Below are positions 22,901 through 63,000 of a DNA stretch of 64,000 nt, piece after piece (the first letter of the stretch is position 1; each line of letters starts with the position of its first letter). The notes below the pieces were generated by a model, which saw nothing but the letters and a program-made list of their open reading frames with translations, was not told where the DNA came from and ran no database searches. A program made the translations under genes and the position numbers. Source of the stretch: Pagrus major (Eukaryota > Chordata > Actinopteri > Spariformes > Sparidae); NCBI RefSeq assembly GCF_040436345.1, contig NC_133236.1, positions 13,446,443 through 13,510,442 of the forward strand, written 5' to 3'.

Positions 22901-25900
22901 TTTAGATGGTGGAACCACTAAAAATATGGCATTTTTCACTTAATTTGATAAATTATTTGAAGCTGAGTCACTGAGAATTAATCAACAACTACCTTGACGA
23001 TGGAATAATCTTTTCAAATAATTTTCCTAGCAAAAATACAAACATCTGATGATTCCAGGTTCTCAAATGTGAGAATTTTCTGCTGTTCGTTGTTTTAAAT
23101 TATGATAAACTGCTAAAATCTTGGATATAGATATATTTGGACTTTGGGTTAAAGAAAATTGGGATTGGGATTCTTTTTTATTTGTCCTTTATTTATTTTG
23201 TAGATAAAACAATTTGTTGATTGATTGAGAAAATAGTATGTGAATTAATCGACAATCACAATAATCATTAGTACCAGCCCTGAAATGATCAGAACTGAAA
23301 CAATTGGTGGATTAACAGATTTGTAAATCAACAAATTTCTTCTTCTTCTTCTTCTTCAAGCTTCATCTCGACAGCACAGATTTAACTTGAAAATGAAGAA
23401 ACCACCCCAAGTTATATTTTGCAAGATCCTCGTCATCATCAACTCAATGTGAGATAAAAAAAAATGTTAACAGAGAGATTCCAGTGTCCTCGCTGCCTCC
23501 TCGCCATCAATTTATAAAATTCAACTAGGCCACCGAAGCCTGTGAGCAGCTCTCTATTCAAGCGCTGCCAATCGTCAAGTCTGGATGTGAATCAAGCAAA
23601 TGTGGGCACACAGTCTCAACAAGAAGTAGCTCATGATAATACACTGTGGGTGTTTGTGGAGTGGGGGCAGTTTCCTCCTTTCTTTTCCGGTACTGTCAGT
23701 TATTTTTTTTCTCTCTCTGAGGTCACCACACAAGAGAAAAATATAGTTTCCCATTCATTTTTAGCTCTATGCATCATTTTATTGGATAAGTGCTGCACTG
23801 AGTCGACACAGAAACCCAGGAATAGACAATATCTACATAAAGATACTGTCTAAGTTGACTTAACAATGCACTTTAATTATTTTATGATGTTATAACAAAA
23901 CAAAGGTAACACTTTATCATAACCATTATTAATAAACAGTACATTTATATGTTATATATTTGAACTCTTTTTGTGTATCTTGACATTATTGCAAATGAGG
24001 GGAACCTCAATGATTTCCGAGGCTTAAAAAAGGTTTGAATTCAACTGAATTAAAATTTATAAACCATTTGTAAAGTTGTATAAACATCAGTCGCTACTTT
24101 ATAATGACCATCTAAATAATGTTTACAAATAAACACAGTATTTATTAACCATTTACAAAGTATTATACACTTCAGTTTAATTGTTTGTTAACAGCGAAAT
24201 AACTATTAACTAAAGTTTAATTAAAAGGTGCAATATGTGAGAATTGGCCATTTGTTGAACTCATACTCCAAACACACAGCGGCAGCATATCACCTGAGTA
24301 GCTAACTATACTCTGTTTGTGACTGTACCTACTGTTAGCTTAGTTAGCTATATTGAGCTTGGTTAACTTTATTGAATATATACTCCAAACACACAGCGGC
24401 AGCATATCACCTGAGTAGCTAACTATACTCTGTTTGTGACTGTACCTACTGTTAGCTTAGTTAGCTATATTGAGCTTGGTTAACTTTATTGAATATATAC
24501 TCCAAACACACAGCGGCAGCATATCACCCAAGTAGCTAACTGCTGCTAACTGTATTTTGTTTATGACTGTAGCTACTGTTAGCTTGTTAGCTCAGTGAGC
24601 TATTTTGAGCTCATACTCTAGACATAAAGCAGTAGCATATAACCAGAGTAGCTAAGTGCTGCTAACTGTATTGTGTTTATGACTGCAGCTACCTAGAGTT
24701 GGTGTTCACACAGCTAGCACAGGTACTTTTAACCGCTGGGAGAAAGAGGTTTTCATGCCTGGGGCTAGCCGGTTAGCATGCTAACATCAGAAGGTAACTC
24801 TACAACACAATACAGACACGTCTTTGACAGAATGTCAAAACTGTTATTTCTTCACATTCTGGTGAAACTTTTACTTAATTTTTGAACATTTTAAACTAAA
24901 ATTCTTACATATTGCAGCTTTAACTATGAATTTACCATTCATTCATACCAAAATATACATTAATTTTCTGTAGGGTTGCAACTGCAGATTTATTTGTGTA
25001 TTATTGATTAATCAATTAATTTCTAGTCAATATAATGTGTCCTATTTAAATACATTTTCACCAAACTCAATGATAATTTGGTTTACTATCATTTAAGACA
25101 AGACAGGGTAGCATATCTAACATATTTTAACATTTTTTTTTATCATATTAACATATTCGAGAGGCTGGAAAAAATGCTTAAACATTTACTTTAATGATAA
25201 ATAACAAAAACAGTTGCCGATTAGTTTTCTTTTGTTTAACTTAAAGGGGCACTACGTAGAAGAAATTCAAATATTTACAATATTAATTAGGTAATAATAC
25301 AAACTCAGACATATTTATTTTATCCATAACTGAATAAACAAGCTGTTCTCAGAGGAAGATAAGGTCCCCAGAACTCTGTTTGAAGCTAGAAAGGTGGCAG
25401 GGTCCGCCACATACAGTATAAACCAAGTAAAACAGTATGAAACTGTGTTGTCCTTTAAGGTCAGTTTGTTCTTTCAGTTTATTCAGTCATGAAAGAGAAA
25501 AATGTTTGTTTGTTTATTTAGTTTGTTCAGGCATAAAAACTCAGTCCATGAAGATCTTTCTCTTCTGATTAAAATGTATTCCCCAAAACTGCATAGTGCA
25601 CCTTTAATGATTGATATATTAATGGTTCAAGCTGTACTTCATTGGAATGTTAACTATAATGACTAAAACACACACTTTACAATGCATCTTTGCCTTAACA
25701 GTTTTATAAATGTTATAACAACGTAATCATATATCTATATTGAGATCTGATATTATTTATCATAAAATATTGAACCAGTTATATCTAAAGTGCAATAACC
25801 TACACAGGATCTGAGATGCTGTTTTTCCATATACACGTCTGACTCAAGCAACATTTGTTCCACATTTACAAAGTGCAAGAAGCCAAGCAGGACAACTTTT

Positions 25901-58170: not shown

Positions 58171-58655
58171 AGTATAAATAATTGTGTGCAGATTGGCCTA
58201 AACAGTGAATGAAATCCAACCTCTGTCACATCTGTATTTCACAGTGGATTTTTTGAATACATTTTTTGCACAGTGGATTCAAAACGTGTCTCGGAGGTGC
58301 TCAGCTGTTTCTGCACTGAAGCCACGAAAGACAAACTTAAGAGACGTCTGGAGCTCTCGATGGCTGAAGAGCATAAACATCTGAAGGGTTGTTACCAGGG
58401 GCCTGTTTCAGGAAGCAAGTTTAACAAACTCTGAGTCAAAACCTGAACTCTAGGTTGACCAACTCTGAGCTGTCAAACTCAGAGTTTTCGGTTTCAGAAC
58501 AGGTGTTAACAATTAGTTCAATCAACTCTGAGTCAAGGTTAACCTGAGTGAAGCTCGTGCATGAGGATATAAAAAGCCCTCATCAGTGGAACGCAGATAA
58601 CATGATCCACCATAGCAACAGGTGAAAAAAGCCTCGATCCTCCTACTTCTCCCCA

Positions 58656-59395
58656 GTGGAGTTGGAAATATTAATGACTGCATATGCAGAAAATGAGCAT
58701 ATTTTCAAAAGACAAAGCAATACTGGGGCAGCAGCAAAATAGCGAGAGCTTGTGTGGCAGAAAATTGCTGACCGAGTCAAGGCGTGAGTTTTAATTGGAA
58801 AAAAAAAAGAAATGTTTCGTCTTGAGTGTTCCACTCATTTAACATTTATATTCTATATGTGTGTTTGAGCGCACAGGTGCAACCCAACAGGCACAAAACG
58901 GACTGCAACGGGCAGCAACTAAAGATGAAATATAAAAATATAGTCCAAACAGGTAAGGTATAATTTAATTACAAGCAATTGTGGTGTTGTTATAGCCTGC
59001 CCTCATTAAACAGCATTCAGTGGCTACATTCAACATGTGATAGCGATATTTAAGTAATTAGGAAAATCCCCTAAACAAAGAAAAAGCCAAATCTTCAGCC
59101 ATCCCATCACTGCCAGTATTTAATATTGTCTATATGAAAGCCACACCTAAATGCCTGTTGTACATGCATGTCTCCAAATTTTTGTTTTCTGGATATGTTC
59201 AAATTTGACCTCCAGTATAGCCAACAGAAAAAAGGCTGAGGCCCGCAAAACAGGTGGCGGTCCACCACCACCACCACTCACAGAGGCTGAAGAGATGCCC
59301 TCAGTCAGAACAGTGGGCGACCTATTGCTGAGGGCATCTCTGGGGGGAGCTCATCAGAGCCAGCCACGCCCCAGGACACAAGGGCCTACATAAGA
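58656..59395 (+). pseudogene. Harbinger Myb/SANT-like DNA-binding protein relic
   Basis: The plus strand reads VELEILMTAYAENEHIFKRQ followed by SNTGAAAK, a stop, then RELVWQKIADRVKA. This is the N-terminal trihelix-like segment of Harbinger-associated Myb proteins. A gt donor follows at 58785. A second block near 58870-58950 (QLKMKYKNIVQT) is frame-shifted. A third (59221-59395) reads RKKAEARKTGGGPPPPPLTE, the typical linker. The in-frame stop and the frameshift make it non-functional. Confidence 0.7.
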
Positions 59396-60413
59396 GGTAA
59401 GTTATTTAAATGAATGGCATATTTACATTCATCCTTTTTCTACTGTTAGCTCAGTAATGGCCATCCATTCATCATAGACACAACTTGGCACACTGATTTT
59501 TCTTGTAGCAGTACGCTACAGTTCTGTTATTGGCTGCTGTTGCTCTCAGATATCAATCTATTTCAAGGTGACTCAGAGTCTGAAAAATTGTGATGGGACC
59601 TGCACACTATTGTAAAAAAAAAAGAAAAAAAAAGAAATGTACATTAGGTGGGGCACTTTTCTGGGTAATCATCAACTGACTAATCTTCTTCAACCAGTTA
59701 CTGATGGTGTAATCTGTCTCGTGGAGCCTTCTGCTATAAGAGACCTCCATGATGTTGTAAGTACTCTTAATATTCCACAGAGTTGTCATGATGGGTAGAC
59801 TATAACACAATAATTTCTTTTTATTACAGGAGGACGATGAAGACACCCTATCTGCCGCCACAGAGAGGGAAGTTGCAGAAAGGCCTGTTGTGGTTCACAC
59901 CTCTTTAAAATAACTTTGGTTTCAGTTAATGATAGTGTTGTTCCACAATGCAACTTGCAGCTTCTTTCTCTCTAACAGAGCAATGCTGGAAATTACAATG
60001 AGGAAGAGGGTCCATCAACCTCCACAGCACAGGTTTCCTCAGTAAGATGTTGTTCAGCATTGACCCATAACTTACTATAACACTAAGTAGACATGGCACT
60101 GTGAAATTCAACGTCATTTGTGTTCCTATAGCTCCCTGTGAAACAACTGTACAAGGTGTACTTGCAGACACAAATCAATAAGTAAAATCTGGAAATGGAT
60201 CACATAAGGCTGCAGATCAAAAAGACACAAATGGAAATACAACTGCTGGATCAACAGTTAAGGGTGGGTGATGTGCTCACAGGTGCATGATTTTCAATTG
60301 TTTCAACAACAAAAGATTAACTGTACAACATTTGTACTTCCAGGAAATAAAGAAGACCTCATAAAATAAGAGGCATATTGTCTTTCTTTGACACTGGGGA
60401 GGTGATGGGTCAG

Positions 60414-60618
60414 TTAGAAATGGTTGGAGCATATCATGTCTCTAACAGCTCTACCATCTCGTGCATCAGCACGGGGGTTAGGATTATTGTCTGGATCATC
60501 AGACCGCTGATAATGATAAAACATCCAATCGGGGTCTGATAATCTTCTCCCGACGGAGATTTCTGCGGAGTATTTGCGCTTCGACATCAACTGGCTCCTC
60601 GAGAAACGGACACGCCAT
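60414..60618 (-). pseudogene. HARBI1-like transposase, N-terminus joined to C-terminus by deletion
   Basis: From the ATG at 60618 the frame reads MACPFLEEPVDVEAQILRRN and continues LRREKII, a typical fish HARBI1-like start, then stops at 60501-60499. Directly after it, another frame reads DPDNNPNPRADARDGRAVRD, then MICSNHF and a stop at 60416-60414, which looks like the C-terminal tail. The catalytic DDE region is absent, so an internal deletion has fused the two ends. Confidence 0.6.
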
Positions 60619-60646
60619 GTCTGCAGGCTTCAACTTAAGAGCAGGC

Positions 60647-62270
60647 CCTGCCGAGAAGTGACTGCACCGTGTAACTCTGGATTACAAGGAGTGATATTGA
60701 CCAAATTCACTGTACATGCACCTGGTTTCCTCTACTATTAATGCTGAAAAGACAGAGAATGTAACCCCTCCCAATCCAGAGTTACAGGGTGCAGTCACTT
60801 TTTGTCAGGGCCTGCCGAAAAGTGACTGCACCCTGTAACTCTGGATTGGGAGGGGTTACATTCTCTGTCTTTTCAGCATTAATAGTAGAGGAAACCAGGT
60901 GCATATACAGCCCTGCCGAAAAGTGACTGCACCCTGTAACTCTGGATTGGGAGGGGTTACATTCTCTGTCTTTTCAGCATTAACAGTAGAGGAAACCAGG
61001 TGCATGTACAGTGAATTTGGTCAATATCACTCCTTGCAATCCAGAGTTACAGGGTGCAGTCACTTTTCGGCAGGCCCTGCCAAAAAGTGACTGCACCCTG
61101 TAACTCTGGCCCTGCCGAAAAGTGACTGCACCCTGTAACTCTGGATTGGGAGGGGTTACATTCTCTATCTTTTCAGCATTAATAGTAGAGGAAACCAGGT
61201 GCATGTACAGTGAATTTGGTCAATATCACTCCTTGCAATCCAGAGTTACAGGGTGCAGTCACTTTTCGGCAGGCCCTGCCGAAAAGTGACTGCACCCTGT
61301 AACTCTGGATTGGGAGTGGTTACATTCTCTATCTTTTCAGCATTAATAGTAGAGGAAACCAGGTGCATGTACCGTGAATTTGGTCAATATCACTCCTTGC
61401 AATCCAGAGTTACAGGGTGCAGTCACTTTTCGGCAGGCCCTGCCGAAACTACACCCCGTAACTCTGGATTGCAAGGAGTGATATTGACCAAATTCACTGT
61501 ACATGCACCTGGTTTCCTCTACTATTAATGCTGAAAAGACAGAGAATGTAACCCCTCCCAATCCAGAGTTACAGGGTGCAGTCACTTTTCGGCAGGCCCT
61601 GCCGAAAAGTGACTGCACCCTGTAACTCTGGATTGCAAGGAGTGATATTGACCAAATTCACTGTACATGCACCTGGTTTCCTCTACTATTAATGCTGAAA
61701 AGACAGAGAATGTAACCCCTCCCAATCCAGAGTTACAGGGTGCAGTCACTTTTCGGCAGGGCCAAATTCACGGTACATGCACCTGGTTTCCTCTACTGTT
61801 AATGCTGAAAAGACAGAGAATGTAACCCCTCCCAATCCAGAGTTACAGGGTGCAGTCACTTTTCGGCAGGCCCTGCCGAAAAGTGACTGCACCCTGTAAC
61901 TCTGGATTGCAAGGAGTGATATTGACCAAATTCACTGTACATGCACCTGGTTTCCTCTACTATTAATGCTGAAAAGATAGAGAATGTAACCACTCCCAAT
62001 CCAGAGTTACAGGGTGCAGTCACTTTTCGGCAGGGCCAGAGGTACAGGGTGCAGTCACTTTTTGGCAGGGCCTGCCGAAAAGTGACTGCACCCTGTAACT
62101 CTGGATTGCAAGGAGTGATATTGACCAAATTCACTGTACATGCACCTGGTTTCCTCTACTATTAATGCTGAAAAGACAGAGAATGTAACCCCTCCCAATC
62201 CAGAGTTGCAGGGTGCAGTCACTTTTCGGCAGGGCCAGAGTTACAGGGTGCAGTCACTTTTCGGCAGGCC
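60647..62270. mobile_element. Mirrored array of a 163-bp terminal-inverted-repeat element
   Basis: Thirteen abutting pieces. The unit is about 163 bp, with a perfect 38-bp inverted repeat at its ends (cctgccgaaaagtgactgca ...) and an ~87-bp core. Approximate pieces: 60647-60809 R; 60811-60910 F truncated; 60911-61074 F; 61075-61109 end only; 61110-61273 F; 61274-61437 F; 61438-61597 R; 61598-61761 R; 61762-61870 R truncated; 61871-62035 R; 62036-62069 end only; 62070-62234 R; 62235-62270 end only. F and R denote core orientation. Pieces join end to end with GGCAGGCCCTGCC-like junctions and no host DNA between. Open frames across it are repeat artefacts. Confidence 0.9.
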
Positions 62271-63000
62271 AATAGAAAGAATACTCTCCAGCCGTTGGAT
62301 TAATCAAGCGCCACACATCTATTACAGCAAGCTGAGTTTGAAACTCCATAAAGGCTGCTGATATCTGTTTATCTGAGGGAAGGGGGAACTAGATCTGTCT
62401 AATGTAGGGTCACAAACAGAATTAAAATCACCACCTATAATAAGAGGGCCCTCCATGAACTGAGATATTGCTGGGCACAGAGAAGCAAAAAACAAAGATT
62501 GTTGTGTGTTTGGAGCATACAAGCTCACAGGGGTCAGTTTTTCATTTTGTAAACAGCCTGAGGTAATAACATATCTCCCATCATTATCATGATGCATACT
62601 AGAAAATTTAAAGGGGAGTTTTTTTTAAATTAAAATACTAACACCTCTGCTTCCTTTGAAACCAGGGGAGGAGAACACCTGCCCAACCCATTTCTGTCTC
62701 AGCTTGTTTGATTCTGTAGCATTCAGATGGGTCTCCTGCAGCATGGCCATGTCACAATTAATAGAGTTAAGATACATCAACATTTTGTATCGTTTAATTA
62801 GATTGTTGATTACATTTACATTCAAACTGACCAAAGTAATTTTGTTCAATTGAGTATCCATAATATAACAAATGCATCATATGAATCAAAATACTGATGG
62901 CACACATCTTTAGTAACCACAAGTGCGCACCAGGTGAGACAGCATTCTGGTGTGCACCCAGAGCCCGCTGCAGGAGATAGCATATGAACATAAACTTAAT
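62271..63000 (-). mobile_element. LINE (L1-like) ORF2 5' part: endonuclease domain, truncated
   Basis: The minus strand from about 62861 reads ITLVSLNVN..., ...[11 protein letters not shown] and SRGVSILI, then, after a break, GRYVITSGCLQNEKL, SLYAPN and PLIIGGDFNSVCDPTLDR. These are the start, the QETH motif and the GGDFN motif of an apurinic-type LINE endonuclease. After a further frameshift it reads DVWRLINPTAGEYSF and ends exactly at the element array (62270). Reverse transcriptase is absent. 62862-63000 is likely its upstream spacer. Confidence 0.75.

Follow-up and report, generated by a model that had tools for sequence, protein, structure and literature searches.

A 163-bp repeat unit in the genome of the fish Pagrus major is the monomer of a dispersed satellite, in which near-identical monomers follow each other head to tail at many loci. 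The monomer probably sits in the centre of a larger, non-autonomous fold-back DNA transposon with the structure T-[unit]n-T', and the mirrored array described here was, as part of the same reading, probably formed in place by local inverted duplication. This array lies near the end of the window, by which is meant the whole 64,000-nucleotide stretch that was analysed. It is an atypical, arm-less derivative piece, with a broken Harbinger on one side and a broken LINE on the other. The interpretation given in an initial annotation, that a hairpin-ended element of unrecognized family had multiplied here, is partly supported.

The array and its flanks

A unit-by-unit count bears out that thirteen full or partial copies of the hairpin-ended unit lie at positions 60647-62268 of the window as assembled (Table 1), and the perfect 38-bp terminal inverted repeat reported for the unit was found again at its termini. 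Eight copies are full-size (c7 with 158 bp, the other seven with 163 bp), two are medium pieces (100 and 109 bp), and the remaining three, of 34 bp, are stubs formed by the terminal repeat only; such repeat-only pieces are present in both halves, as had been noticed (c4 on the left, c11 and c13 on the right). The left copies had been called mostly forward and the right copies all reversed, and the orientation of the ten larger copies agrees with both statements, being -,+,+,+,+ in the left five (c1 is the reversed one) and minus throughout the right five. Neighbouring ends had been described as directly fused (GGCAGG/CCCTGCC); the joins are confirmed in the form ...GGCAGG-S-CCTGCC..., i.e. GG-S-CC, where S is one C or G standing between the units.

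The longest inverted repeat in the window, of 474 nt, pairs c3-c4-c5-c6 on the left with c12-c11-c10-c9p on the right, and the stub partners c4 and c11 have in common an A at position 7. Variants common to both halves, another claim of the initial annotation, are real: among the window copies, T at unit position 43 is found in c6 and c10 only, and A at position 57 in c5, c6 and c10. The c6/c10 pair was, though, rejected as proof of the mirror, as the positional partner of c6 is c9p and that of c10 is c5; point variants are thus shuffled between the mirror registers. Nor is a copy's mirror partner in every case the copy most similar to it (c6 and c9p differ at 3 of 109 positions, c3 and c12 at 2 of 163), and S differs in one of the three comparable mirrored junctions.

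Table 1. Features of the mirrored array and of its flanks (window coordinates).
Feature	Position	Strand	Description
Left flank, Harbinger-type transposon	58399..60645	-	Distal terminal repeat, adjoining CAG, at 58399; truncated at AACTTAAGAGCAGG
c1	60647..60809	-	Full unit, most diverged window copy
c2p	60811..60910	+	Unit positions 1-100; join to next unit ACAG-C-CCTGCC
Left arm, local inverted duplication	60910..61383	+	98% complementary to 61762-62235
c3	60912..61074	+	Full unit; positional mirror partner c12
c4	61076..61109	.	Terminal-repeat-only stub, end CTCTGG; unit strand ambiguous, junction forward; mirror partner c11
c5	61111..61273	+	Full unit; mirror partner c10
c6	61275..61437	+	Full unit, variants T43 and C99; mirror partner c9p
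c7	61439..61596	-	158-bp unit; tail-to-tail orientation switch between c6 and c7
c8	61598..61760	-	Full unit; identical units present at several other loci
c9p	61762..61870	-	Unit positions 1-109; reverse-strand join AATTTGG-C-CCTGCC; C99 elsewhere only in c6
Right arm, local inverted duplication	61762..62235	-	Partner of 60910..61383
c10	61872..62034	-	Full unit carrying T43 and A57
c11	62036..62069	.	Stub, CTCTGG truncation as in c4; junction on reverse strand
c12	62071..62233	-	Full unit
c13	62235..62268	.	Third CTCTGG-truncated stub; junction on reverse strand
Right flank, LINE fragment (endonuclease part)	62271..62876	-	Cut at AATAGAAAG by the array

The array had also been called host-free, which holds for its interior; on either side lies another transposable element, in both cases broken. 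The left one we take to be a Harbinger, from an N-terminal protein motif and a CWG-type site, and two short translations of it gave no match in Pfam. The element lacks some 190 bp at its 5' end: nine other Harbinger-type copies, 95-98% identical to it, all run on past the cut and read ...AACTTAAGAGCAGG/GGAAACTC, while in the window the array begins at that point. A Harbinger origin of the unit was considered and rejected, as those nine copies carry unrelated sequence past the cut. The LINE fragment on the right matches Pfam PF03372 with E 3.1e-4 and 21 bits, below the cut-off of 24.5. The genome has a single further match to it, C17:872710, which extends beyond the cut and reads ...GTGCACACCAG/AATAGAAAG where the window reads ...GGCAGGCC/AATAGAAAG. 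The array thus joins two broken and unrelated elements, and is not a clean insertion. A separate tandem repeat of 117 bp (2.4 copies, 98% matches) is present at positions 24263-24541 of the window.

The unit family and its fold-back element

The genome searched comprises 785,883,843 bases (about 786 Mb) in 25 contigs. At least 292 unit matches were obtained with 40 of 386 candidates scored, and 1,648 sites (up to 2 mismatches; control 0) have a palindromic end-to-end junction, arm-unit and arm-arm junctions included. Twenty array regions picked by unit match and ten loci picked by arm match were read, a sample biased to the best matches, in which the elements of L010, L025 and L011 appear a second time, as L039, L044 and L046 respectively. 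Head-to-tail arrays are found at many of these loci, with as many as 50 full units in one stretch (L028, a 10-kb stretch that is all array). Two or more full units are present in 26 entries, and only in the window do full units lie in both orientations; L025 and L044 overlap, so that 5 units are counted twice and the other 25 entries represent 24 elements. Shorter reversed pieces are also seen in L010, L017, L019, L025, L027 and L028. Inversion is hence not unique to the window, which holds the only inversion of several full units.

Only four unit positions have a minor frequency of 30% or more, and these form the block that defines classes A and B. All full units of the window belong to class B, which has the perfect inverted repeat; most other entries mix both classes, L010, L013 and L021 (one or two units) have B only, and L042 has A only. 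The arrays of L025, L017 and L028 contain recurrent truncated forms of their own (40-bp end pieces, 79-165 pieces, end-only pairs), and truncation within an array with later amplification of the product may be frequent in this family. The exact end motif had no match in viral and genome contig collections, both without fish.

Within the stretch read, 14 of the 20 array regions are flanked by an arm on one or both sides. The six arm-less ones comprise L009 and L014, with an outer arm end only, and L012, L026, L027 and L028, in which the array meets the end of the stretch read. Arms are present at both sides in L010, L015, L016, L018, L019, L040 and L047, and L021 has a short arm end and an arm. 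An arm measures about 645 bp, or 727 bp where its inner end is formed by unit positions 87-165 (L017), and the long terminal inverted repeats make up most of the element, as is typical of fold-back elements; variable tandem repeats were not found within the arms. The tandem units lie between the arms, the full ones in one orientation, and n ranges in armed copies between 0 and at least 20: L040, which consists almost wholly of its two arms, has no full unit, and L015 has 22 full units by a stricter count. In the armed copies, what moves seems to be the larger T-[unit]n-T' element. The earlier view that the 163-bp unit itself inserts finds no support in the sample, every array locus read having several units or an arm; likewise, the unit as a free MITE was rejected, with no single unit among the loci read, a sample of best matches.

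The ends of the fold-back element start GGTGTAGTGCCGA, and the motif of the unit end, TGCCGA..A..GACTGC, recurs in the outer arm end as two degenerate copies, which are possibly binding sites for a transposase. At L010:1663-2306 the arm holds a stretch, ATCAGAGGTGGGTAATAACG..., presumably akin to the end of a hAT-type fish repeat; the arm may have captured another element.

Target sites, mobility and related systems

For two insertions in other repeats, the empty site could be compared with its filled counterpart. The first reads GGT-CCGG-AACATC when empty, with CCGG in 4 of 4 unfilled copies, and GGT-CCGG/TGTAG...CTACA/CCTG-AACATC when filled. The second reads AATTAATG-CCGG-TATGTC when empty, with CCGG in eight of nine relatives (L068-L076) and CCAG in one, and AATTAATA-CAGG/.../CCTG-TATGTC when filled. 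Distinct arm ends whose end motif is intact number 31; they abut CCGG in 19 cases, CAGG in 10 and another sequence in 2, which gives C(C/A)GG at 29 of 31. This count leaves out degraded motifs (L013, the left of L018 and the right of L021) and the end of a related short element beside L042. From these letters, we read a CCGG target that is retained on both sides, with a C-to-A change at some ends. Neither empty site shows a clean target duplication, CCGG becoming CCGG/CCTG or CAGG/CCTG, and in the two comparisons there is no longer duplication such as the 8-10 bp of Tetris; the 7-8 bp of the P superfamily (Galileo) were not found either. PIF/Harbinger elements duplicate 3 bp, TWA or CWG, and this too is absent, the fish element having a CCGG target and an outward-facing C(C/A)GG at both sides. 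A literature search on CCGG target sites and zebrafish DNA transposons found nothing.

The insertion sites suggest that the fold-back element is mobile; no transposase was found, and the element would be moved by one made elsewhere. On C16, beside a T arm, L042:1786-1914 holds an element of about 130 bp with related ends (CCGGTGTTGTGCCAGAAAACAACTGC ... GGCACGACACCGG). It directly abuts the end of the fold-back copy, and next to it comes a gene that matches HTH_Tnp_4 and, weakly and below the cut-off, DDE_Tnp_4. The open frames after this gene resemble, we presume, a growth-factor gene. The transposase was not retained as the partner, as an end that matches was sought and not found over the 3.4 kb beyond its gene.

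That fold-back elements and MITEs seed satellites is already established (Tetris, Galileo, Xstir, miDNA4). Tetris of Drosophila virilis, with the TIR-220 satellite, is presented in the portion of the source consulted as a non-autonomous fold-back element with long inverted arms (PMC4079207). On the same description it resembles the fish element in its variable tandem repeat, in a stretch common to repeat and arm (37 bp in Tetris) and in satellite arrays of kilobase size, but its repeats lie inside each arm, whereas the fish units lie between the arms with full units in one orientation; it also makes 8-10-bp target duplications instead of using a CCGG target, and the perfect 38-bp inverted repeat of the class B unit itself sets the fish element apart (PMC4079207). 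Galileo, of the P superfamily, is similar in its long and dynamic arms, its internal tandem repeats in one copy and its link to inversions, but, in the sections available, is given a 7-8-bp duplication with consensus GTATTAC and transposase-coding segments, neither of which was seen in the fish element (PMC4168063). Xstir and miDNA4 of Xenopus and the zebrafish Angel fold-back model are similar in that tandem arrays are carried by MITEs and stem-loop models of amplification have been proposed, as summarized in PMC12628747; the extracts of that account, compared by description only, do not mention palindromic junctions centred on C or G. A fish case of this unit family was not recognizable by title or start of abstract in the full-text literature search, Repbase being outside its scope.

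Origin of the mirrored array

The evidence for duplication in place comes from the stub junction CTCTGG-C-CCTGCC. Searched as TGTAACTCTGG-S-CCTGCCGAAAAGTGACTG with at most 1 mismatch, it occurs three times in 785,883,843 bases, once forward and twice reverse, and all three are in the window array; the reversed-pattern control gave 0. T43 and C99 are likewise absent from every other fetched locus, and each occurs twice in the window, once per half. As this stub junction is confined to the array, where it is read in both orientations, and as the locally restricted variants appear once per half, the inverted copy was most likely made here, by local inverted duplication from one truncated original. 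Growth by template switching or hairpins rather than by independent insertions, as first proposed, is thereby supported for the mirror. The process probably began with a deletion that cut one unit to a 34-bp stub (CTCTGG/), after which the stub and its neighbours would have been copied in place, once inverted and once more in tandem. A likely route would be template switching guided by fold-back or microhomology at the palindromic junctions, in replication or in break repair; the truncations of the window, in which an internal GG or CAG is joined to the exact end of the next unit, are as expected of deletion or template switching with short matches. Given that some mirror partners are not each other's closest copies, later exchange between copies has to be assumed, and would have reshuffled the point variants.

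All units end in the same inverted repeat, so that every unit-unit junction is palindromic and can form a hairpin. Between class B units the palindrome spans 77 bp and is perfect apart from the central base, and the 77-nt junction folds at -47.4 kcal/mol, against a mean of -8.4 for 100 shuffles. Junctions between neighbours of the same orientation are standard in 218 of 232 cases, with S being G in 122, C in 96 and A or T in none, although one A/T-centred junction is present in the wider junction list; of the 14 non-standard ones, 6 have an asymmetric spacer in one sense and 4 the same spacer in the other. S differs in 17 of 71 junction pairs with identical flanking units and in 90 of 205 with one flanking difference, the pairs not being independent. 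This strict C/G variation fits hairpin flipping, in which inversion of the palindrome tip explains the change. Ordinary exchange between two S alleles, the main alternative, could also account for it; within one locus, S differs in only 3 of 37 identical-flank pairs (again not independent), which speaks against flipping. A wider reading, put forward tentatively, is that every monomer junction is a site of closed hairpins, that arrays grow and invert by the opening and joining of hairpin tips, that S records the flipping and that the window is one such inverted-copy event, frozen.

Ectopic recombination, by inversion or deletion, between two opposite arrays, one in a Harbinger and one in a LINE, is a possible but doubtful source of the mirror, the window then being the breakpoint. 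It would suit flanks cut mid-element from unrelated elements and the GCAGG that the left junction has in common with the unit end, and Galileo, itself fold-back-like, is reported in the part of the source seen to have caused inversions in this way (PMC4168063). However, the window-only stub lies in both halves, so an inverted duplication is needed anyway, and no orphan Harbinger 5' end exists among the 16 matches at 92% or above, all of which adjoin a Harbinger body (40 of 82 candidates scored); a balanced inversion, sought through such an orphan end, was accordingly not found. Ectopic recombination may have contributed to the mismatched flanks, but does not by itself duplicate the stub.

It is improbable that units repeatedly transposed into GG-type sites, including their own ends, and that the mirrored order is a coincidence. 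GG stands at the join in 6 of 7 places in the window and, by our own reading, in 9 of 14 distinct forms elsewhere, arm ends likewise have C(C/A)GG, and dimers formed by insertion into the same site are described in the review, as far as its text was available (PMC12628747). Nevertheless, five of those 14 forms, including recurrent ones of L025 and L028, have no GG, and the same truncation, present three times in two orientations, would require three identical events. The initial suggestion of repeated insertion into the unit's own ends also finds no support in the truncated pieces of the window, where no split copy with both remainders is found. An assembly artefact, with the inverted half produced by a fold-back or collapsed read, is very unlikely: palindromic arrays are hard to assemble, but the two halves disagree at several positions and in the order of their pieces, the window contains no N, and the full units of the other sampled arrays all run in one direction.

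With local inverted duplication as the preferred origin, the window array documents, on a small scale and in nature, the rearrangement of hairpin DNA, and is not a colony of an unknown transposon. The loci read suggest stages on the way from a fold-back element to a satellite: the arm-arm element, the central array, the arm-less array and the inverted rearrangement. Hairpin flipping may have left a trace that can be measured in the C/G-only centre of the palindromic junctions, and in any genome with such arrays the rate of flipping could be set against that of ordinary mutation. If the wider hairpin reading is true, the family would keep, in the germ line of a vertebrate, a natural and readable record of how cruciforms are processed.
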